A stretch of 61,345 nt of DNA from a virus, in the IMG/VR virus record IMGVR_UViG_3300036861_000887, positions 1 through 61,345 of that record; one strand, given 5' to 3'. Position 1 is the stretch's first letter. Every line of letters begins with the position of its first letter. The notes under the pieces are model-generated. The model searched no databases. It was not told where the DNA came from and saw nothing but the letters and a program-made list of their open reading frames with translations. This document shows, one piece after another, positions 18,867-59,943 of the stretch. Position numbers and translations under genes: made by a program.

Positions 18867-19090
18867 GCTGCCTGTGCCTCCTGTGTCGCCAGCCACTTGT
18901 TCCACTTGTTCCACGCATGTTCCCGGGCGGCCGGGGTATACGCCTGGCGGGGTGGCCAGACAGATCGAAACCACCAGCGCGTGGCGCCTGCCGTGACCGT
19001 AACAGCATAGACCCACGCATCCTCGGGATAGGTGGGATACAGAGGGGCAAGGGGTGCAATCGGTTCCCACGACTCCTGCCACTGTATCAT
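18863..19090 (-). CDS. Small Trp-rich hypothetical protein
   Basis: 75 residues with several Trp (MIQWQESWEP, RWWFRSVWPP, HAWNKWNKW). First of the small genes after the portal, with ATGA overlap to the portal stop. The KWNKW repeat is encoded by a short direct repeat. No family recognised. Confidence 0.58.
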   Translation of the reverse strand: MIQWQESWEPIAPLAPLYPTYPEDAWVYAVTVTAGATRWWFRSVWPPRQAYTPAAREHAWNKWNKWLATQEAQAA

Positions 19091-20820
19091 GCTGCCTGTG
19101 CCTCCTGTAAGTTGACGAGTCCAGCGGTGCCCTGCTGGAACGCCGCCGCCCCCTCGCGGAGCACCTGGGCTTGTTGTGCCTGTGCCGCCTCCTGCACCCG
19201 TGTCGCCCGAATCTTGTCCCGTTGACGCGTATCCCGCAGCAGGTCACGCCGGTTCCCCAGTGCCAAGGCGGAATCCCTCAAACCCTTGTCCATGTCGAAG
19301 TTATCGACCCAATCCGTGCGGGCCGTCACCTGGGCCGCCTTCCCCAGTAAGTTTAACAGATCGTCCAGCGCGCGTACATGGGACGCCTTTTGACTGCGCG
19401 CCAGCGGGCCTTCATACCGCACCCCAATCTGTCCGCCATGCTGCTGCGCCGCCAGGAGCACTTCGCGCGGGACCAGAGGCAGCACACCATCCCGGCCACG
19501 CGCCCAGGCCTGCTCACTGGCCCGACTCATGAGCCCGAAGGTGCGGTCCATGAGGGGATCCAAGAAATCGGCCAACAACATCACGAAGACCGGCCCCATG
19601 AACCGCGCCATCAGTTCAATGCGTTGGCCCACCTCGTAGGCAGTCATCTTCCCCGTGGCATCCGGCGGCGGAATGGCCAGCAGGTCATCCACGTGGTAGG
19701 CATCCCGAATCTCTTTCTGGAGCCGCGCAATTTCCGAGACGACCTTATCGGGTTGCCCCTGGATATTGAGCGGGAACAGCGCGTCCTTCTGCTCCAGGAT
19801 GTTCACCGCCAATGGCGCAAACCGGAGTGCTCCGGTGAGGGCGCCATTGAGCAGCCCCAGCGCCGGTTGGGCATGCAATTCAACCATTTGCAGCCACATC
19901 ATAATCAATTTATTGAGTGTCTTGGCGGCGGGCAGCGCCTCATGCCCTGGCCCATACCCCCAGGCACTCTGGCCTTCGCGGTCGTAGCGACTCACCAAGA
20001 AGGGAAACTCCTCCCACCCCAGTTCCGTCACGACTTTCTTATCCGTGAGATCAATGATCACATCAGCAAACGGCAGGTTGCGACTGTCCCGGCGGCTGGG
20101 GTCTTGCACTGCGCGCGGGCAGACCACATGCAGATACGGCTCCTTTTCGTCCATTTTGCTATCGTAGTGGGTGCTCCGCATAATCCTCTTCGCCCGCTCT
20201 GGCGCTTGCTCCCGCCACTGCTCCACCGCCTGAATGGGGGTGAAGTAGAGCTTGCGCATGACGGTATCCACCCGCCCACTGGCCCCCTCGGCAATCACGT
20301 AGGAGCCGGGGTAGAGCGTCTGGAACCGCAGCGCAAACACCTGGCTTTCGTACCACAGGTCCTGCCGCTGGCCGACATACGTACAGGCCGTACCAAACAC
20401 CCCCAACTGCGCGTAGTGCTGGAAACTCTCCTGGTAGAAGTTGCTGGTGTTGTAGGCAAAGAGCATGCGGTCAGAGACCGTGCCCATCCAGGGAATCACC
20501 TCGGCGTCATCGTTGAGTTCCTCGTCTTCAAAGCCCAACTCAAACCACGGCAGCGCCGGGTTAGTCGCCGCCGCCTGCAAGTTCCCCGCAAACAGGCGCC
20601 GGGAGCGCAAGCCGGTCGCGTCAAAGAGGTCGAGGGTGCGCGTGCGGGCCAGGCCATCTGGTGTCTCGCCCCGGAAGATGTCACTCTTCGCGGGCCAAAA
20701 CAGATCCGCTTGTTGCCGCCAGGCGTCCAGGTGCGTCTGGTGCTGCCCAAAAAGATGCTCCGAGCGCGCAATGTGGCGCTCGGCCAGCGGACGGCGGTAG
20801 GGGATTACGGTGGCAGGCAT
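19087..20820 (-). CDS. Portal protein (head-to-tail connector)
   Basis: 577 residues, usual length for T7-like connectors. The signature regions include SEHLFGQHQTHLDAWRQQADLFWP near the N-terminus, the FAGNLQAA segment, WMGTVSDRMLFAYNTSNFY, then a C-terminal half with MTAYEVGQRIELMARFMGP, the conserved crown/stem helix. Twelve copies form the DNA channel at the capsid vertex and dock the terminase. Start ATG 20820 overlaps the preceding TGA (TGATG). Confidence 0.92.
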   Translation of the reverse strand: MPATVIPYRRPLAERHIARSEHLFGQHQTHLDAWRQQADLFWPAKSDIFRGETPDGLARTRTLDLFDATGLRSRRLFAGNLQAAATNPALPWFELGFEDEELNDDAEVIPWMGTVSDRMLFAYNTSNFYQESFQHYAQLGVFGTACTYVGQRQDLWYESQVFALRFQTLYPGSYVIAEGASGRVDTVMRKLYFTPIQAVEQWREQAPERAKRIMRSTHYDSKMDEKEPYLHVVCPRAVQDPSRRDSRNLPFADVIIDLTDKKVVTELGWEEFPFLVSRYDREGQSAWGYGPGHEALPAAKTLNKLIMMWLQMVELHAQPALGLLNGALTGALRFAPLAVNILEQKDALFPLNIQGQPDKVVSEIARLQKEIRDAYHVDDLLAIPPPDATGKMTAYEVGQRIELMARFMGPVFVMLLADFLDPLMDRTFGLMSRASEQAWARGRDGVLPLVPREVLLAAQQHGGQIGVRYEGPLARSQKASHVRALDDLLNLLGKAAQVTARTDWVDNFDMDKGLRDSALALGNRRDLLRDTRQRDKIRATRVQEAAQAQQAQVLREGAAAFQQGTAGLVNLQEAQAA

Positions 20821-27424: not shown

Positions 27425-30400
27425 CTACCGCACTGCATAGGCCTGCACCGCCTGGATCCGCCCCAGGACGGTGTACGTGGTAAAGCGCGTCGTGTCACTC
27501 TTCACCAGCCGCAGATCGACATAATCCGTGCCCACCTCCGCTAGGGATGACAGCTTCACCACCGCCACGTATTTGCCACAGTGTGTCGCGGTCATGGCAA
27601 ACGGAGCACTGGGCATCCCGCCTACCTTGCGGAACGTGCCCCCATCCAGCGTACAGCCCGAGAGCGAGGCCGTCGTCGCCGCACCGTTCGTCACAGCCAC
27701 ATCCTGCCCATAGCACGCCAGATGCCCCGTGCAGTCGTCGGTCAGCGTGTACCAGTTGGCGTCCGCCGCGTTGCTACTCGTGCAGTTGGTGCTGTCACAG
27801 GCCTGAAAGATATGGCTCGCGGCCGGACAGTCGTTGGTACTGCATGAGAACTCCAGATGTTCCTGCGCGGTCGCCCCCGGGGGGAGGTAGCAGGGCGCAT
27901 CCAGCACCGCATCACGAATCGTCAGTCCCTGGGTAAACGTCTCCCCGGCCAGCGCACAGCGCGCATGGGTCTGCGCCAGCACGCCATCCCCAGCCGGAGG
28001 CGCCGGGGCGTTGTTGGTGATATTCTTGCACCCCGCCGCCAGTTCCGTCGTGCCATTGGTGATGGGAGACGCGGTGCCCTGGGTGTAGCAGAGTTGCCGC
28101 TGCGCCTCGCCGTAGACAAAGGGGGGCGTAATCGGGATGGCGTACTGGCTCACATTAATGCGGTCGATACTGGCAGACACCGTATGCCCCGCATCGACGG
28201 CCAGGCCCGTGGCACCGGTCGCTGGCACAATCGCCCCCCCGGCCGGGTCCAGGGTCGCGACAATCGTGGTGAGATCCTCCGCTGCCACCGTCGCCAGCAG
28301 CAGCGTGGGCGCCGCGGGCGGCGCCGCCACCTGGTTCACGCAGTTCGCGATGGCCCCGTAGGCAAAATCGGCTAATGCGACACCCGTGCTGCCCGTGATG
28401 TTGCTGGCCACTGCCTTGACTCGCACGGTATGCCCCGTGACGAACGCCGTTGTCGTGGTAAACTCAAACTCATTCACGCCAATCCGCGTCCCTGTGCCGC
28501 TCATGGTCTTGTCCACACCGTTGTCATCAAAGGTGATGCCCGTGGCGCCAGACGCCGGGAGCATGTTCCCTGCCACACCTGAGCTAAACGTAATGCGCGC
28601 GGTCACATCAGACGCGGTATCGGGAATCAGACACGAGATGGGCAGGGGCGGCGGATCGGTCCCCCCAGTGAGGGTGTTGGTGATTGACTGGCTGGTGACG
28701 GCCAGCCGCTCGCCCGCAACGCCATTCGTCCCCCCGACCTGCTTCCCCGACTTGATCGCACCAGCCACCGTATAGAGCTTCAATACATCGCTCGGCTGCA
28801 TGCTGGCGCCACTGACCGTCAAGAGGAGCGAGGCCCCGCCGGCTTCGACCGGGCAGGCCGTCACCGTCCGCGCCGTGCCCGTCGTCGTGGCATCGCAAAT
28901 GCCCCCCGCCGGGTTGACACAGACGTACATCAGCCCACACGTCACGGTGATGGGGGTCTCAATGGCGCAGACCGTCGCCCGGAGCGTATGGGTATCCACG
29001 GTCGTCACCGTCGGCACCGTGGGAATTTCGAGGGCGCCTGGGTCCCCTTGGGTATTGTTGGGACAGGCCGGGCTAAAGCTGAGACTGTTGACGGCCGGGC
29101 TCGTACTCGTCAAGTTCACATTCGTCGCCGAGACAAACAGCGGGTCGGCCACCTGGCTACTCGTGTCGGGCGTGCCACTCCGCGCCTGCCAGGTCCCCAG
29201 GGTTTTACTGACCCCGCCCTCAAAGAACGGCTTGCGCCCTGTCGTGTGATGCAAAAACACATTCTGAGTCGCCGCCGTCTTCCCGCCCGTCCAATTGGCG
29301 CTGGCATTGCCCCCGAGTTCGGCACTACTGGCCGTGGCGTCCGTGTTCACCCCGTTGTTGGCCACGATACTGCGAGAGAGATTGACGGTTGCGCCGGCGG
29401 TATTGGCCTCTATCCCCATCCGGCTATTCCCCACAATCGTGCAGTTCGTGGCATTTACGGTGAGCCCCGCATGTTGCGCGACGAGCCCATCATACGCCCG
29501 GACGAGCAGGCAGCGGTTCAGCGTCACCGTGCCCGGGCCATTCAGAAAGACGGCGGAGGCAGGCACGCCAGCGGCCGCACAGGCGGGAATCCGGGGATCA
29601 CTGAGGCTGGTGAGATGATCATGGCTATACAAGCCATTGAACGTGACCGGGACGGCGGTCGAATTGGCCCCGTTATTAGGCCCCCCGCCATTGTGCACGT
29701 TGAGGTTCGTGAGGACGATATTCGACCGCTGGCACGGCGTCCCATTATGGCAGGCCGCAAAGCCACCATGAGCAAAACTGTTATACATCTCGCCGTCTAC
29801 GTCCAGGTAATCCGCAATGCTCCCATTTTTACTCAGGTCCTCCTGATCGCGCCCGGAGTCATGCCGGACCACCCGCGTGAAGGTCACATCCTGAATCACG
29901 TCCGAAGCCACATTCGTGAGGAGATACACGAGCGGCTGGCCGTCACTCGTCCCACAGCCACTACAGGCATTCCCCACCACGGTCCGGGGCGCACTAAAGG
30001 ACAACTCGACGTCCGTGACGGTAATGTGCCGGGCGTTGAATCCAATGTAGAGGGCCTGTTTCGGCGCCCCGCGAATGACGAGATTACTCACGTCCCAGTA
30101 GTCACGATCAATCAGCAGCATGGGCTGTGTTGCGCCAGTCGTCGCGATGCTCAAGGCCTCGAACCCCGGATTGCTAAAGGTATCCGGGTCCGCATCGTTC
30201 CAGGTGTACAGCTTGGCCTCGGCCGTGTTGTAGCACCACTGGTTGTTACTGGCGAGGTGTGCCGGGCAGGAGACCGGCGTACAGGAATTCGTGGCGCAAC
30301 ATGGGGGGTTATTCCCGCTCCCCGGCGCAATGTAGGTCCAACTGGAACGATTCGGATGCCAGCCGTGATCCAGGTTCATATGGGTCGATGGATTGGCCGG

Positions 30401-30928
30401 ATCATAGTCACAGGTGTAGCCGCGATGCGTCACCCCCACCATGGCAGCGGTGCCACACTGCTTATCCGCGTCCTGGAGCACCGTGGCATAGGGATTGACC
30501 GACTGGCTCGCCCACCAGACTTTGGCTTTCTCCCCACTACTCAACACACTGCACTGGCCGACGTTGCCGGTACACGTTGTCCAGCCCGTCACGAGGCTCA
30601 GGGGCGTAATAATGGGACGCACCAGCGAATTGCGAATCGTGGTACAGTTGTAGTTGGTCAGGGTAATATGCTGACTCGCCGTCCCCGAGTTGACGGTATT
30701 CGCCAAGTCGTACATGCGATGGATGGCGCCGTTACACACCCGGATCGTATCGCCTGCCACAGACACATCGACGGCGCCTTTGAGCGTCTCCTTGGCCAGC
30801 GCTTCGGTGAGGCCCGAATCGGCATTGTTCCCTGTGGGTTGATCGACATACCGCACGGTGGCCCAGGCAGGCGCAGCGAGCCCGACACAGAGGCACAGCA
30901 GGCCCAGGAACACGCGCAGATGTCGCAT
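27425..30928 (-). CDS. Large exported parallel beta-helix protein
   Basis: 1167 residues. Signal peptide MRHLRVFLGLLCLCVGL, cleavage near PAWA. Residues about 25-640 read as a right-handed beta-helix: YVDQPTGNNADSGLTEALA, then repeated short strands with Asn turns (VNATNCTIVGNSRMG). From about 660 on come Ig-like beta repeats with many Cys, e.g. LPASGATGITFDDNG and IVPATGATGLAVDAG. ATG 30928 has GAGGAC upstream. Composition resembles a surface adhesin or polysaccharide lyase; no catalytic residues identified. Being exported rather than virion-assembled makes it unlike a normal tailspike. Confidence 0.7.
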   Translation of the reverse strand: MRHLRVFLGLLCLCVGLAAPAWATVRYVDQPTGNNADSGLTEALAKETLKGAVDVSVAGDTIRVCNGAIHRMYDLANTVNSGTASQHITLTNYNCTTIRNSLVRPIITPLSLVTGWTTCTGNVGQCSVLSSGEKAKVWWASQSVNPYATVLQDADKQCGTAAMVGVTHRGYTCDYDPANPSTHMNLDHGWHPNRSSWTYIAPGSGNNPPCCATNSCTPVSCPAHLASNNQWCYNTAEAKLYTWNDADPDTFSNPGFEALSIATTGATQPMLLIDRDYWDVSNLVIRGAPKQALYIGFNARHITVTDVELSFSAPRTVVGNACSGCGTSDGQPLVYLLTNVASDVIQDVTFTRVVRHDSGRDQEDLSKNGSIADYLDVDGEMYNSFAHGGFAACHNGTPCQRSNIVLTNLNVHNGGGPNNGANSTAVPVTFNGLYSHDHLTSLSDPRIPACAAAGVPASAVFLNGPGTVTLNRCLLVRAYDGLVAQHAGLTVNATNCTIVGNSRMGIEANTAGATVNLSRSIVANNGVNTDATASSAELGGNASANWTGGKTAATQNVFLHHTTGRKPFFEGGVSKTLGTWQARSGTPDTSSQVADPLFVSATNVNLTSTSPAVNSLSFSPACPNNTQGDPGALEIPTVPTVTTVDTHTLRATVCAIETPITVTCGLMYVCVNPAGGICDATTTGTARTVTACPVEAGGASLLLTVSGASMQPSDVLKLYTVAGAIKSGKQVGGTNGVAGERLAVTSQSITNTLTGGTDPPPLPISCLIPDTASDVTARITFSSGVAGNMLPASGATGITFDDNGVDKTMSGTGTRIGVNEFEFTTTTAFVTGHTVRVKAVASNITGSTGVALADFAYGAIANCVNQVAAPPAAPTLLLATVAAEDLTTIVATLDPAGGAIVPATGATGLAVDAGHTVSASIDRINVSQYAIPITPPFVYGEAQRQLCYTQGTASPITNGTTELAAGCKNITNNAPAPPAGDGVLAQTHARCALAGETFTQGLTIRDAVLDAPCYLPPGATAQEHLEFSCSTNDCPAASHIFQACDSTNCTSSNAADANWYTLTDDCTGHLACYGQDVAVTNGAATTASLSGCTLDGGTFRKVGGMPSAPFAMTATHCGKYVAVVKLSSLAEVGTDYVDLRLVKSDTTRFTTYTVLGRIQAVQAYAVR

Positions 30929-30951
30929 TATGTGATGGTCCTCACAATCGC

Positions 30952-30980
30952 TTGCATTGGGCCACAACGGCGGATATAAC
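30952..30980 (+). promoter_or_regulatory. Sigma70-type promoter for the lone plus-strand gene
   Basis: TTGCAT, 17 bp, TATAAC. It lies between divergent genes, 56 bp before the ATG at 31036. A CTGCACTGTGCAG palindrome just downstream could be an operator. Confidence 0.5.
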
Positions 30981-31035
30981 TCTTGCTGCACTGTGCAGAG
31001 TTCCACGGACCCACACCCAGAAAGGATGGACGCCG

Positions 31036-40373: not shown

Positions 40374-42107
40374 TTAGTCGGCAACTCCTTCAGCCCCTTC
40401 TGGGCCAAATTCGTTGTACCGTCCACAGCTTTTCTCTAGCCATAAATCAATCTTCCCCGGATGACCAATCTCTCGATACCGCACTTTTTGCACATGCAAC
40501 TCAACGTGACCGTCTCCCGCCTCAACATCCCGCCAGAGGGTTAAGCAGTTATCCGCTTTATTCCGCCAATGGGAACTACCAGAAATGTCATAGGGGCTTG
40601 GTGGAGGGTATTGCCCTGCATACGCACCGGAGACCGCCTTTGTCATCTTGGTCGGATGCACCACAATCCAGACATGCACCCCGTGAATACGGGCAAACCG
40701 CCGAATCTGTGTCAGGGTTTGGGAGATGTATTCTGTTTCGGTCATATGCGAGGGACGACTGTGCTCAATCTCATTCCACGGATCAATAATGAGCCCCTTA
40801 ATGCCCATGCGATAGACCTGGACCTTGGCAAGATCGAGCAACGCGCCAATGGTCGGGGCTTCGTCCTCTGGAAGCAGAAAGCAGAAGCTCGCGTTGAGCC
40901 AGTCCATAGCCTGTTCCATCTGCTGGGGAGGCATCCGGACCGCCGCACCATCAAATGGTTGGCCAGTCTGTTGCTCCATCAGGAGCGCCGCATAGCGTTC
41001 GAGCGGATATTGTTCCGGGGTAAACACCGCAAAACGCCAGCCGTGCGAGGCCGCGAGATTGATCATCATGGCACTCACAAACTGACTCTTCCCGTGCGAC
41101 GGAATCCCTGTGACAATGGTAAACTCTCCCGCTCGCACGGTGTAATGCTGCGCCACTTTGTGCCATCCTGGAGACGTGCCACGCTGTATCCCCTGATGGT
41201 AGAGTTGGGTAATGCCATTGCGAATCATGTCAATGGTGACAATCCCCTGGACAGGCCAGGGCTCCGCATGCTCGATACATTCCCGCACGATATGTGCGCC
41301 CTGATGCATCAGCACATCGTTGGCATCTTTACATTCACTGGACCACTGCACGGTATAGCAGCGTTCCGGGCCAAGCCTTCGCGCCAGCTCTTGCGCCAGG
41401 CGCTGCCCAGGGAGGTCATTGTCTACGGCCAGGATAATGCGCTTGAGCGGTTTCAGGAGCGCTTCTGCGGAGAGGAGAAAGTCAAATTTGTGCTCATAAT
41501 GCTTTGTGTCTGGCGCTGGCGCACCATCGGGCACTGAGACGACACTCGTATAGCCCGCCACTTCGAGCGACAGCTTGTCGATTTCCCCTTCGCAGATCAG
41601 TACGGTGCTTCCCGCGATATCATCCAACCCGTACAAGATGCGCTCGGCACCGCCAGACATCCGGAAGAACTTGCGCCCATCGCGGTATTTGACATTGACC
41701 ACTTCGCCGTTCCGAAAATAGGGGAACTGGATGGCGGGAACCTCTTGTTCAACCTGAGGCATGTATACCGGGCCGTAGCTGATGCGATTCCGGGCCAGAA
41801 TCTTTTCAGGAATCTCCCGTGTAGCAAACCAGTCAACCACGCGCTGGGGAAGCGCCGTCTGTCGGTAGACTGGTTTGCGAAAAATGAGCGGGGTGGCATA
41901 CGGGTTGGACCGTCGGTCTTCCCCTTTCCCGAGGGTGCCAGACCACTCACAATGCCAGCAATGCCACACGCCTTTATCAAGATTGAGGTTGAGACACGGG
42001 TAGTGTTTTTTCTTGCGGTGAGCCGAACACGCCGGACACACCGTTTTGAATTCGCCCGTGGTATGTCCTTTGGTATCGATGCCAAAATCTGTCCACGTCC
42101 GTTGCAT
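40374..42107 (-). CDS. Primase-helicase (T7 gp4-like)
   Basis: 577 residues. N-terminal zinc-binding region CPAC ... CWHCEWSG; TOPRIM core with LICEGEID and the DND-type ILAVDNDLPG; C-terminal RecA-type helicase with Walker A GIPSHGKS and Walker B GLIIDPWNEIEH, then WIVVHPTKM and GSSHWRNKADNCLT. This order (zinc, TOPRIM, DnaB-like helicase) is that of T7 gp4. Unwinds the fork and makes primers. SD AGGAG six nt upstream; follows the initiator by 12 nt. Confidence 0.92.
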   Translation of the reverse strand: MQRTWTDFGIDTKGHTTGEFKTVCPACSAHRKKKHYPCLNLNLDKGVWHCWHCEWSGTLGKGEDRRSNPYATPLIFRKPVYRQTALPQRVVDWFATREIPEKILARNRISYGPVYMPQVEQEVPAIQFPYFRNGEVVNVKYRDGRKFFRMSGGAERILYGLDDIAGSTVLICEGEIDKLSLEVAGYTSVVSVPDGAPAPDTKHYEHKFDFLLSAEALLKPLKRIILAVDNDLPGQRLAQELARRLGPERCYTVQWSSECKDANDVLMHQGAHIVRECIEHAEPWPVQGIVTIDMIRNGITQLYHQGIQRGTSPGWHKVAQHYTVRAGEFTIVTGIPSHGKSQFVSAMMINLAASHGWRFAVFTPEQYPLERYAALLMEQQTGQPFDGAAVRMPPQQMEQAMDWLNASFCFLLPEDEAPTIGALLDLAKVQVYRMGIKGLIIDPWNEIEHSRPSHMTETEYISQTLTQIRRFARIHGVHVWIVVHPTKMTKAVSGAYAGQYPPPSPYDISGSSHWRNKADNCLTLWRDVEAGDGHVELHVQKVRYREIGHPGKIDLWLEKSCGRYNEFGPEGAEGVAD

Positions 42108-55016: not shown

Positions 55017-57074
55017 ATGGCTGAGAACGGCAGTAGCTTGATTGTAGCGACGTCAACCGCCCTGCAGGAACATCAGCAGGTCGATACCGCCATCATTGAG
55101 AAAGCGCTGATGTATGGGGATGTGGCGAAGCTGGACCCTGCGCAGCGGGTGCAGTTCTACCGCGCCATCTGTGCCAGTGTCGGTCTTAACCCTTTAACAC
55201 AACCATTTACTTTTTTAAAGCGCCAGGATGGTACGCTGTGGCCCTACGCCAACGCCTCCTGTGGCGAGCAATTGCGGAAGCTACACCGAGTCAGCACGCG
55301 GATTGTCAAGCGGGAGCACGAGGACATCTTTGGGGAGCGCATCTACCGAGTGGAGGCAGAGGCCTCAACGCCGGATGGGCGCACCTATCCGACGCAAGCC
55401 GTCGTGCCCCTCATGAAGGCGAAGCTGGAGCCCACCGGACAGAAATGGCCCGATGGCAATCCGAAGATGCGAGAGAAGCGGGATGCCGAGGGCGAAGTCA
55501 TCATGGCGCCGTTGCGTGGCGTGGAGTTGGCCAACGCCCTTATGCGGGCCGACTGTGTGCCGCTGGAGAGCGAAATTCTGACGCGGAAGGGCTGGAAAAC
55601 CTACGACGCGGTGAAGATTGGTGACGAAGTACTCGCCTACGATTGCGCAGATGATACCTGCCACTGGACACCGCTGGAAAACATTACCGTCTTTCCAGAG
55701 GCACTGACGATGGTGTTTGGTACGGAACTCCATAGCTTTCGATGCACCCCTGACCACTCCTGGGCTATTCGTGCAGAGGGGTACAAGCAGCGTGGCGCGA
55801 CCGCGCGAGGGCCATATACCAATCGGCAAGCCTCTCGACGCTTAGAAAAAGCGCATGCAGTCAAGGCTGGGCACCGGGTGATACTGTCAGCACCCGCCGA
55901 AGAAGGCAGCAGCACTCTTACGCCGGCAGAAGCAGCAATTCTTGGCTGGGTGATGACTGATGGCACGATACAGCAGCGTAAAGCCTCCTTTCGAGTGGGT
56001 ATTTGCCAGAGCAAGGAAGAAAACTTTGAGGCGATTGAGACCGCCCTGACCGGTACAGGCTATGCCGTATCGAAGGTGGTAGGGAAGCCCACAACGCGAG
56101 ACTTTGGGACGTATGTCTCCGAGTGTAAGCCACAAGTCTGGTGGTATCTCTCCGCCCATGATTCCCGGGCCTTATTCGCAAAAGCGGGGATTGCAGGTCC
56201 TCAGGATTTATCCCGTGTCGTAACGCAACTCTCACGGGCAGCTCGTCAGGCAATGTTTGCCGCCATGATGGCTGCTGATGGAGACGCCCGGCTCAATTTC
56301 GGGAAGATACGGAAACCCGGAGTGATGGATGCGTGGCAAATTCTCGCTACGCTAGAAGGCTATGCCCTTGGAAAGCTCGCGACTGAGCGGAATGTCCCCA
56401 CCCAGCGAGCCAGGAAGCAGCGCTATATGGCAGGCAGTAACGTGGAACTACGCGAGGCCTTTGTTGAAGCGGTTTGGTGTCCTACGACAAAATACGGAAC
56501 ATGGGTGATGCGGCAGCACGGGAATGTCACCATTACCGGCAACACGAAAGCCTCCCGCCGGGCGACTATGGGGTTGATTGGATTGGGGTGGATGGATCAG
56601 GAGGAGTATGGGGCGTACAAGGTGGGCTTCAATCCGCAGACGGGGGACGTGATTGAGGGACATGCTGAGCCTGTGGTGCCGAAGCCTCTCGAAACGCCGT
56701 CACCGGAAAAAGCCCAGCGCAACATCGAAGAGATGTTTGGGGATCGCCAACCAGCGTATAATCCTCCCAGTACCGCGACCACAGCGCAGGGGACGGTGAA
56801 CACAGAGACAGGCGAGGTGCTGGACGGGGAGACGACAGCGGACACGCGAGAGCCCGCCACCCAGCAAGAGTGGCTGGATCGCTGCTATCGTCTCTGCCAC
56901 GAGCGCGGCATCCCCCAGTTCGATTTCCGAGAGGATGTGCAACGCTATTGGACAGCACCCCTAGGCGTGCTGCCAGCGCGCCAGTTGTCCGAGGTCGCAG
57001 AGTGGTTGTTGAGTGGCGAACTCCCGGCGCGGTTGCAGGTGGTGGGGAGCGAGGCAGGGGAGACACAGCCATGA
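55017..57074 (+). CDS. RecT-like single-strand annealing protein containing an intein
   Basis: 685 residues. The extein is a phage recombination protein of the RecT/Bet-like type: ALMYGDVAKLDPAQRVQFYR, ICASVGLNPLTQPFTFLKRQ, SCGEQLRKLHRVSTRIVKRE, then LANALMRAD joined to TKASRRATMGLIGLGWMDQE, the usual (K/R)A(E/D)TKA(K/S)RR block. A 330-residue intein (residues 180-509) splits that block. After splicing about 355 residues remain, a normal size plus an extended C-terminus. It would anneal single strands in phage recombination or replication. AAGGAAAA before ATG. Confidence 0.85.
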   Translation: MAENGSSLIVATSTALQEHQQVDTAIIEKALMYGDVAKLDPAQRVQFYRAICASVGLNPLTQPFTFLKRQDGTLWPYANASCGEQLRKLHRVSTRIVKREHEDIFGERIYRVEAEASTPDGRTYPTQAVVPLMKAKLEPTGQKWPDGNPKMREKRDAEGEVIMAPLRGVELANALMRADCVPLESEILTRKGWKTYDAVKIGDEVLAYDCADDTCHWTPLENITVFPEALTMVFGTELHSFRCTPDHSWAIRAEGYKQRGATARGPYTNRQASRRLEKAHAVKAGHRVILSAPAEEGSSTLTPAEAAILGWVMTDGTIQQRKASFRVGICQSKEENFEAIETALTGTGYAVSKVVGKPTTRDFGTYVSECKPQVWWYLSAHDSRALFAKAGIAGPQDLSRVVTQLSRAARQAMFAAMMAADGDARLNFGKIRKPGVMDAWQILATLEGYALGKLATERNVPTQRARKQRYMAGSNVELREAFVEAVWCPTTKYGTWVMRQHGNVTITGNTKASRRATMGLIGLGWMDQEEYGAYKVGFNPQTGDVIEGHAEPVVPKPLETPSPEKAQRNIEEMFGDRQPAYNPPSTATTAQGTVNTETGEVLDGETTADTREPATQQEWLDRCYRLCHERGIPQFDFREDVQRYWTAPLGVLPARQLSEVAEWLLSGELPARLQVVGSEAGETQP
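55554..56543 (+). other. Intein with LAGLIDADG homing endonuclease
   Basis: 330 residues, Cys1 to Asn330, followed by Thr (+1). Block A CVPLESEILTRKGW, block B TPDHSW (65-70), two DOD motifs AILGWVMTDG (128-137) and FAAMMAADGD (235-244), C-terminal block GTWVMRQHGNVTITGN. The penultimate residue is Gly rather than the usual His, an accepted variation in some inteins. Confidence 0.92.
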
Positions 57075-57235: not shown

Positions 57236-57429
57236 TGCAGGATCTCGACCAATACCTCGCCGCTGTCCATTCTCATTTAGCCGCCTGCCAGGTCCACTGT
57301 GGCATCACGCACGACCGGGCAGTTGACTCGCCATTGTGGCATGAGGCGGTGGCAGCAACATTGGAGGACGTGCGGCGGACGTGGCAGGTTGTGCAACGAC
57401 TGGCAGGTGAGGAGAAAGACACGCGATGA
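57235..57429 (+). CDS. Small helical protein
   Basis: 64 residues from MQDLDQYLAAVHSHLAACQV, helical, Cys/His-containing (AACQVHCGITH). ATG 57235 overlaps the prior TAA. A start at 57220 has AGGAGG ten nt away; less likely. Confidence 0.52.
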   Translation: MQDLDQYLAAVHSHLAACQVHCGITHDRAVDSPLWHEAVAATLEDVRRTWQVVQRLAGEEKDTR

Positions 57430-57863
57430 CTCTACATCTCACCCCGGCCCAAGCACGCACGTTACAACTCGCCCCCTCGTCGCAGCGGAAGATCCCCGTG
57501 GCCCCAAAGGAGGAGCGCACATATCACGGAATCCTGTATGATTCCAAGGGGGAATCCGACTTCGCCGCGCAATGTGATCTCCGCAAGGCGGACGGGGAAT
57601 TGGTGGACTGGGCCTATCACCCACCTCCCTACGCGCTGGACATCCGTGGCTACGAGGTGGGCCGCTACACCATGGACTTTGCGCTGTATTACGCCGATGG
57701 ACGCAAAAAATTGATCGAAGTGAAAGGTGCGTATTGGACGCCACGGGACCGGCTGCGGTGGAAGGTGTTTCTGGCGTGCTGGCAGGACCAGTTGCGGGAG
57801 ATGGGGTGGACGATTACGCTGGTGCAGAAGCCGCAGACACCGAGGAGGAGACGCCATGTCTGA
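57426..57863 (+). CDS. DUF1064-type nuclease (PD-(D/E)xK)
   Basis: 145 residues. DSKGESDFAAQCDLRKADGE, then MDFALYYADGRKKLIEVKGAY gives Asp ... Glu-x-Lys, the active site of PD-(D/E)xK nucleases and of DUF1064 / Holliday-junction resolvase-like phage proteins. Basic C-terminus. Near the annealing protein, so a resolvase/recombination role fits. ATGA overlap. Confidence 0.78.
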   Translation: MTLHLTPAQARTLQLAPSSQRKIPVAPKEERTYHGILYDSKGESDFAAQCDLRKADGELVDWAYHPPPYALDIRGYEVGRYTMDFALYYADGRKKLIEVKGAYWTPRDRLRWKVFLACWQDQLREMGWTITLVQKPQTPRRRRHV

Positions 57864-58507: not shown

Positions 58508-58671
58508 GAAGGCCCCACCGGGGGAGAATGTGTGTACGTTTTGTCATAAGTCATTTCTGAGCGCTGACAGCGCGCACTCTACGCGCTAGCGCGCAAAGTG
58601 GTTTCATGACCTGGCGCTGCATGCAATTCTTTGAACACCCCCGGTGGGGAGATTTGAGTATAGAGGTTCCA
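58508..58671 (+). other. Intergenic region with nested palindromes
   Basis: About 160 bp. Holds CCCC-ACC-GGGG after the stop (58514-58524), then GCGCT-GAC-AGCGC (about 58561-58573) and GCGCTAGCGC (58583-58592). No clear promoter. An in-frame ATG at 58606 could add 22 residues to the next gene. Confidence 0.45.
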
Positions 58672-59142
58672 ATGACCGATGACCCGCCCCTCACCGCACG
58701 CTACGTCGCCTTGGTGACGCGCTTGCGCCAGCCGATGCTGGCTTGGTGCGCGCGGCAGTGCCCGCAGGATGCCGAAGACGTGTACCAAACGGCGGTGCTG
58801 GCGGCCTGGGAAGGGTGGCCCCCTCGGCACCTGGATGCCGCCGAGGCCTGGCTGTGGAGCTACATGTATCACAAAGCCTTGCACGCCAGACGGTGGCATG
58901 CCCGGCGCCGGCGGGATGCGCACTTGCTCCGGCATCTGCCCGAATATACGCCCCGGCAGCAACCCATGAGTCGTCCGTTGGAAATCCGGGAGGCTTTTGC
59001 CGCCGTGGCCCCCTCCGCGCGGGAGATGGTGCTGCGGTATGCGATGGGGGAGAGCGTGCAGACCCTGGCCATGCAGGAGGGGCGGACGGTCAAGGCGGAA
59101 CAAAATCACTTGTCGCGGGCACGGCGGGTGTTGGCGCGATGA
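58672..59142 (+). CDS. ECF-type sigma-like factor
   Basis: 156 residues. Region 2: QCPQDAEDVYQTAVLAAWEG then WLWSYMYHKALHARRWHARR; region 4: FAAVAPSAREMVLRYAMGES, VQTLAMQEGRTVKAEQNHLS. Clear ECF plan; third sigma-like gene of the window. AGAGG five nt before ATG 58672. Confidence 0.72.
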   Translation: MTDDPPLTARYVALVTRLRQPMLAWCARQCPQDAEDVYQTAVLAAWEGWPPRHLDAAEAWLWSYMYHKALHARRWHARRRRDAHLLRHLPEYTPRQQPMSRPLEIREAFAAVAPSAREMVLRYAMGESVQTLAMQEGRTVKAEQNHLSRARRVLAR

Positions 59143-59153
59143 GAGGAGACGCA

Positions 59154-59441
59154 ATGCAGGTAGGGGTGTTCCTGAATATCACGGCCACTCTGCTACTGTT
59201 CTGGCTGGCGATGATACAGGGGGACCGGATTGCGCAGCAGCGCCAACGGCTCCTGACCATGGAATGGCAGCTGCGCGAGGTGGAACGGCGCACCATGGCC
59301 CCCCCCGTGTGTATCTTCAACAACACGCAGCAGACGAAAGCCTGTTACTACACGCTGGCTGAGGCCTTGCAGTCACTGGAGCAGGAGGGCTTACACATTT
59401 ATTCTGAGAAGGAGACACGCCATGCGACGCATCCTGAGTAG
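59154..59441 (+). CDS. Membrane-anchored coiled-coil protein
   Basis: 95 residues. N-terminal helix VGVFLNITATLLLFWLAMI, then a coiled coil (RIAQQRQRLLTMEWQLREVE), then Cys-containing tail. Inner-membrane spanin-like layout, but no companion lysozyme is seen. GAGGAG five nt upstream. Confidence 0.58.
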   Translation: MQVGVFLNITATLLLFWLAMIQGDRIAQQRQRLLTMEWQLREVERRTMAPPVCIFNNTQQTKACYYTLAEALQSLEQEGLHIYSEKETRHATHPE

Positions 59442-59943
59442 CGCCTTGCTCCTGCTGGGCCTGGTGGCGCCAAGCTGGGCAGGCGAACCCTTGCGCGTCA
59501 TTGATGGCGATACCGTCGCAAACTCCGTAGGACGTATGCGCCTGTACGGCATTGATGCGCCAGAGTGGTCGCCGACTGGCAAGCACCCGCAGCCATGGGG
59601 GAAGGAGTCCACAGCGTGTTTACAGGAGCTGCTCGACACCTACCCAAATAATCAAGGCATTACCGGACTGCAATTTGACTGCCGGACGAACCGCGAACTG
59701 GTACGGATCGCGCTGGAATATCTCACTGCATGTGCTGGAGTAGACGGCACTGGACGCTGTGTAGGGCATCTCGACGTGAGCACCGAGCTGGTGCGCCGAG
59801 GCTGTGCGCATTGGTATAGGGCTTACGCCACGCATGACGACGCCTTGCGCCAGGCTGAAGCGGAAGCACAGGCGGCGAAGCGCGGGCTGTGGGCACAGGA
59901 ACACATTGTGGCGCCATGGGACTGGCGAAGGGGACGGCGATGA
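59422..59943 (+). CDS. Exported SNase-like nuclease (thermonuclease family)
   Basis: 173 residues. Signal peptide MRRILSSALLLLGLVAPSWA. SNase motifs: RVIDGDTVANSVGRMRLYGI then DAPEW (Asp21-, Arg35-, Asp40-, Glu43-type positions), LVRIALEY and the late AEAEAQAAKRGLW. Extended loops with extra Cys compared with Staphylococcus nuclease. Would degrade DNA/RNA in the periplasm or outside. Overlaps the previous gene by 20 nt. Confidence 0.85.
   Translation: MRRILSSALLLLGLVAPSWAGEPLRVIDGDTVANSVGRMRLYGIDAPEWSPTGKHPQPWGKESTACLQELLDTYPNNQGITGLQFDCRTNRELVRIALEYLTACAGVDGTGRCVGHLDVSTELVRRGCAHWYRAYATHDDALRQAEAEAQAAKRGLWAQEHIVAPWDWRRGRR

Follow-up and report, generated by a model that had tools for sequence, protein, structure and literature searches.

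Recombination in phages is driven by annealing proteins, which also serve as tools in recombineering. In a survey of mycobacteriophage inteins (Kelley et al. 2016; PMC5050341), the inteins lie next to invariant motifs; the host genes named in its table and figure legend (terminase, RDF, RecB-like, nucleotidyltransferase, portal, helicase, methylase, and others) include no annealing protein. In the same survey, the Bethlehem RDF intein with its native penultimate Gly splices completely, while its Gly-to-His change requires more than 5 h for about 50% splicing. Class 3 inteins are defined by a triplet of Trp (B:12), Cys (F:4), and Thr (G:5) (PMC3196547, PMC5050341, PMC7664689), described in one published definition as found only in this class; the nucleophile of class 3 is the Cys of this triplet (PMC4031507, PMC5222942). 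The triplet is shared by the Msm and Mch DnaB1, Bethlehem DnaB, and Catera Gp206 inteins, and class 3 inteins generally have no Cys1 or Ser1. The insert described here is of a well-known kind, but the literature searched, the coverage of which was partial, contained no description of an annealing protein (RecT, Rad52, or any other) with an intein.

In the window, which is the whole stretch analysed (IMG/VR virus record IMGVR_UViG_3300036861_000887, 61,345 bases), a 685-aa annealing-protein precursor was encoded in one open frame (Table 1). The insert consisted of 330 aa (residues 180–509), and the exteins joined without it made up 355 residues. The initial annotation had reported a LAGLIDADG intein in a phage annealing protein at this place, with a joined extein of about 355 residues. 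Its coordinates were exact to the base, each motif that it quoted (Cys1, TPDH, two DOD motifs, and ITGN followed by Thr) was found in the insert, and its assignment was backed by homologous inteins, by the predicted structure, by relatives that have no intein, and by two alleles at the same site. Taken as a whole, the gene very probably represents a full-length LAGLIDADG intein inside a single-strand annealing protein of the RAD52/RecT/ERF fold, for which splicing and homing are proposed.

Table 1. Features of the intein-bearing gene and other genes of the window
Feature	Position	Strand	Evidence or remarks
Annealing-protein precursor, 685 aa, single open frame	55017..57074	+	
N-extein, residues 1–179, ends ...LANALMRAD	55017..55553	+	Aligns to intein-free homologues; GC3 0.726
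Intein, 330 aa, Cys1 to Asn330: splicing domain and LAGLIDADG endonuclease domain	55554..56543	+	Phage polymerase inteins align to exactly these boundaries; alleles at the same site in L002 and L119; AF2 and Foldseek; GC3 0.579
Block A, CVPLESEILTRKG, Cys1 nucleophile	55554..55592	+	Cys1 in 29/29
Block B, LHSFRCTPDHSWAI, T65 (B:7), H68 (B:10), W70 (B:12)	55728..55769	+	T65 and H68 in 29/29; W70 in 23/29
First LAGLIDADG motif, ILGWVMTDGTI, acidic D136	55938..55970	+	D/E in all alignment rows; I-DmoI-like predicted fold
Second LAGLIDADG motif, AMFAAMMAADGD (AMMAADGD), acidic D242	56250..56285	+	D in 20/29, E in 8/29
Block F, AVWCPTTKYGTWVMRQHG, Cys309 at F:4	56469..56522	+	C309 in 29/29
Block G, VTITGN: T328 (G:5), penultimate Gly329, Asn330, then Thr+1	56526..56543	+	T328 in 27/29, G329 in 27/29, N330 in 29/29
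C-extein with stop codon, starts TKASRRATMGLIGLGWMDQEE	56544..57074	+	Homologues uninterrupted, MKAETKAKRR; GC3 0.712
DUF1064/Holliday-junction-resolvase-like nuclease, recombination context, after annealing gene	57426..57863	+	PHROG 190, E 1.4e-15; Pfam DUF1064, 3e-8
Sigma-70 region 2 protein (phage-encoded sigma-like factor)	58606..59139	+	Pfam, 5e-6
Staphylococcal-nuclease-like (SNase) protein	59422..59940	+	Pfam, 2e-15
Primase/helicase	40377..42107	-	PHROG 239, 8e-93
Head-tail connector	19090..20820	-	PHROG 332, 6e-96
1193-residue frame	27428..31006	-	No PHROG match

Tblastn analysis of the whole frame against phage genomes revealed matches of residues 176/180–509 to phage DNA-polymerase inteins, with E-values down to 1e-14. 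In pairwise alignments, the inteins of Pseudomonas phage KIL1 (E 5e-29) and Escherichia phage AV126 (E 3e-24) aligned from Cys1 to Asn330. These phage DNA polymerase I inteins, from the KIL1 group and from Escherichia Phapecoctavirus (e.g., AV126), were thus homologous to the window intein across all 330 residues and shared its block layout and its TITGN-type end without a penultimate His; however, they had only about 25% identity to it and occupied another host gene and site, and the +1 residue was Cys in KIL1 and Thr in the window. The joined extein (residues 10–205) matched, with E 8e-19, a Campylobacter phage protein that has no interruption at the junction, and other insert-free host homologues also aligned through it. 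The AlphaFold (AF2) model of the window intein had a pLDDT of 93.2 and a pTM of 0.90. Its best solved matches in Foldseek were TliVMA (1.9e-13), PhoVMA, and PI-SceI (5e-10), within a range of 1.9e-13 to 1e-9, and it also matched the LAGLIDADG endonuclease I-DmoI (1e-5); the predicted fold is that of a HINT splicing domain.

The insert was in frame, started with Cys, and ended with Asn330 followed by Thr, and it contained the block B Thr-x-x-His as well as blocks F and G. The Thr+1 nucleophile was the Thr native to the host-family motif MKAETKAKRR. The conservation counts in Table 1 came from an alignment of 29 related phage inteins, in nearly all of which both LAGLIDADG positions held an acidic residue; in the window intein, these were D136 and D242. 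On this evidence, the insert is a real and apparently intact phage intein of known kind. Two related inteins of 235 and 243 residues (L129:4001-4705 and L135:4001-4729) were without much of the endonuclease region and were not reliably aligned at the LAGLIDADG positions; they are natural steps towards mini-inteins. Two inteins of the group (L127 and L130) were present in different genes of one 90.8-kb record, IMGVR_UViG_3300037258_000549; no second intein of this group was found in the window record.

A search with the host-protein alignment detected relatives in viral contigs (413) and in the genomes of bacteria and archaea (31). The insertion was noted initially as splitting MRAD|TKASRR, and this agreed with the relatives: the insertion point was uninterrupted in 112 of the 114 host-protein matches examined, the exceptions being L002, which has an insert, and L117, a partial match. 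The exact sequence MKAETKAKRR was present in 69 of the 114, and most of the others were one or two residues off. When the full precursor was aligned with homologues that have no intein, MAFFT placed the C-termini of the homologues in columns of the intein, and this alignment was discarded.

Searches of Pfam, PHROGs, and NCBIfam with the precursor, the joined extein, and 70 homologues gave no family over the cut-off for the host, known annealing families included. The strongest single-member matches had E 0.019 (RecT) and 0.0062 (bet_lambda), these weak matches being limited to one or two of the 70 members, and the RAD52 family profile gave E 0.0095 at best. By hhalign, the host matched lambda Bet at E 0.015 across 33 columns only and did not match the phage ul36 annealing-protein family. 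A weak Pfam hit of the host to RCR (0.02) was taken as chance. The model of an intein-free homologue, L007 (pLDDT 86.8), had human RAD52 as its best PDB match in Foldseek (1.2e-4, probability 1.00), followed by yeast Mgm101 (E 0.03), and its matches in the viral library, after its own unnamed family, were proteins named RecT, Rad52, ERF, and Sak3. The host is therefore placed, by its predicted fold, in the RAD52/RecT/ERF annealing-protein superfamily. Since whole-chain TM-scores of the host model to RAD52 were low (about 0.3), the claim is one of shared fold and not of close kinship. The earlier description of the host as RecT-like thus holds at the level of the fold superfamily but not by sequence, and the best solved fold match was RAD52. 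The family, present in more than 400 viral contigs and unnamed in Pfam, PHROGs, and NCBIfam, is an unannotated family of putative phage annealing proteins. In the L007 model, the insertion point was located in a long helix (150–172) in which Lys and Arg residues are invariant; in RAD52, the inner DNA-binding groove is lined by the equivalent helix.

Two further phage contigs carried an intein at the same insertion point, L002 (AE|C...N|TKAKRR), found by the host-protein search, and L119 (VE|C...N|TKAKRR), found by its intein. Intein identity was 49% between the window and L002, 54% between the window and L119, and 48% between L002 and L119; the corresponding extein identities were 34, 27, and 37%, and the nearest relatives of each of the three exteins were intein-free. 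Blastn similarity between the window and L119 was seen in the intein only (segments 55941-55974 and 56250-56552), apart from 9 bases of the C-extein at the end of the second segment, and blastn found no nucleotide similarity between the window and L002. In the compared flanks of the insert-bearing loci, no shared genes were found beyond the intein-bearing gene. Third-position GC was lower in the window intein than in its exteins (Table 1), and the same dip was seen in L002 (0.658/0.432/0.662) and L119 (0.690/0.585/0.748). In the phylogenetic trees, the three inteins formed a group with a support of 94/96, and the three exteins fell in three places and came together in 0% of 200 bootstrap trees. 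The terminal branches of the window and L119 exteins (3.17 and 3.09) were about six times the family median of 0.5, and that of L002 was 1.18; the window and L119 annealing proteins were unusually diverged within the host family.

Vertical descent with a slower-evolving intein is compatible with the tree alone, and a single extein clade was not rejected by the AU test (p 0.47), owing to the long branches of the window and L119 exteins. Same-site inteins that are 49–54% identical to that of the window, in host proteins only 27–37% identical, and DNA similarity to the window that is confined to the intein point to homing; movement of the intein by homing from one phage to another, unrelated phage is the better interpretation, short of proof. 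A reading of the 330 residues as an ordinary domain that belongs to the host-protein family, one of the cases named initially as overturning the intein, agrees with three members of the family carrying the insert at the same place; the probability of this reading is negligible, and it is refuted because the homologues are uninterrupted, while related inserts occur in unrelated proteins (polymerases, portal, and tape-measure). Sparse occurrence (L002 alone among the 114 relatives from the host search, plus L119 and the window) and the Gly in place of the penultimate His would fit a decaying copy that has lost splicing or homing. However, the frame was open, and all splicing positions and both acidic endonuclease residues were kept in three alleles that had diverged by about 50%, so that we regard decay as quite improbable. 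The penultimate Gly had been suspected of slowing splicing. This concern is unsupported, because Gly is the rule of the group (27 of 29) and the Gly-type Bethlehem RDF intein, which shares this residue, splices completely and is slowed by His (PMC5050341); that intein is the one tested phage case found, and it is compared with the window intein by analogy.

The apparently intact intein leaves two routes for the first chemical step, the only point at which a class 3 reading differs from a plain class 1 reading. The class 3 triplet, overlooked in the initial annotation, is present alongside the class 1 Cys1: W70, C309, and T328 are located exactly at B:12, F:4, and G:5. The first nucleophile may thus be Cys1 or Cys309, because the triplet and Cys1 coexist. 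On the class 3 route, Cys309 and not Cys1 would attack the junction with the N-extein, and W70 and T328 would be the other two members of the triplet. The published class definitions rest on this triplet, which was complete in 23 of the 29 related inteins, with C309 in all of them; against this, Cys1 was also kept in all 29, although class 3 inteins generally have no N-terminal nucleophile, Trp was lost in six, and none of the class 3 DnaB inteins was recovered in a profile search of solved structures at E 0.001. We consider the class 3 route a serious possibility, with a probability slightly under one half. A few inteins of mixed signature were reportedly tested by Tori and Perler in 2011, and class 3 is said to have been widened to take in some. 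A broader and rather unlikely proposal is that this phage clade, with Cys1, penultimate Gly, and the full triplet, follows the class 3 route of splicing or can start from either cysteine, and that it is a present-day relative of the phage ancestor proposed for class 3, which would have arisen by loss of Cys1; in the annealing protein, the intein would also act as a switch, the DNA-binding helix being broken until splicing. With this signature, the proposed phage origin of class 3 can be tested on natural sequences.

In the proposed mechanism, the intein would consist of a HINT domain that catalyses its own splicing and, nested within this domain, a LAGLIDADG homing endonuclease with two motifs. 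After translation the intein would excise itself by Cys-initiated acyl transfer, movement of the N-extein to Thr+1, and cyclisation of Asn330, and the two exteins would be left as one continuous single-strand annealing protein of 355 residues with a RAD52/RecT/ERF-type fold. The unspliced protein should not anneal DNA, because the intein breaks the conserved MKAE|TKAKRR helix, and the precursor would stay inactive in annealing as long as this helix is interrupted. The endonuclease is expected to target the conserved DNA encoding the helix in intein-free copies, so that homing would carry the intein between unrelated phages. The known intein hosts are extended by a recombination protein of the strand-annealing type, in which the site is defined and repeatedly occupied, and an intein at the probable DNA-binding helix of such a protein offers a natural on-switch for study.

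The surroundings of the gene were compared among the homologue loci. A YqaJ-type exonuclease gene was located just downstream in 13 loci and an SSB gene near 6, an association that several relatives share with RAD52, RecT/Red beta, ERF, and Sak3 proteins; the YqaJ exonuclease was not found in the window or in the two other intein-bearing records. The gene preceding the annealing gene of L002 weakly resembled Gam (E 0.006, below the cut-off). The primase/helicase and the head-tail connector, on the opposite strand to the annealing gene, mark the record as that of a tailed phage, and a long frame of 1193 residues was also present on that strand. The sigma-like factor and the SNase-like protein were encoded downstream of the annealing gene. 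An HNH endonuclease frame (L007:2331-2945) was located upstream of the intein-free annealing gene of L007, and related frames occurred in 8 loci near the family; these are possibly free-standing homing endonucleases of the same region.
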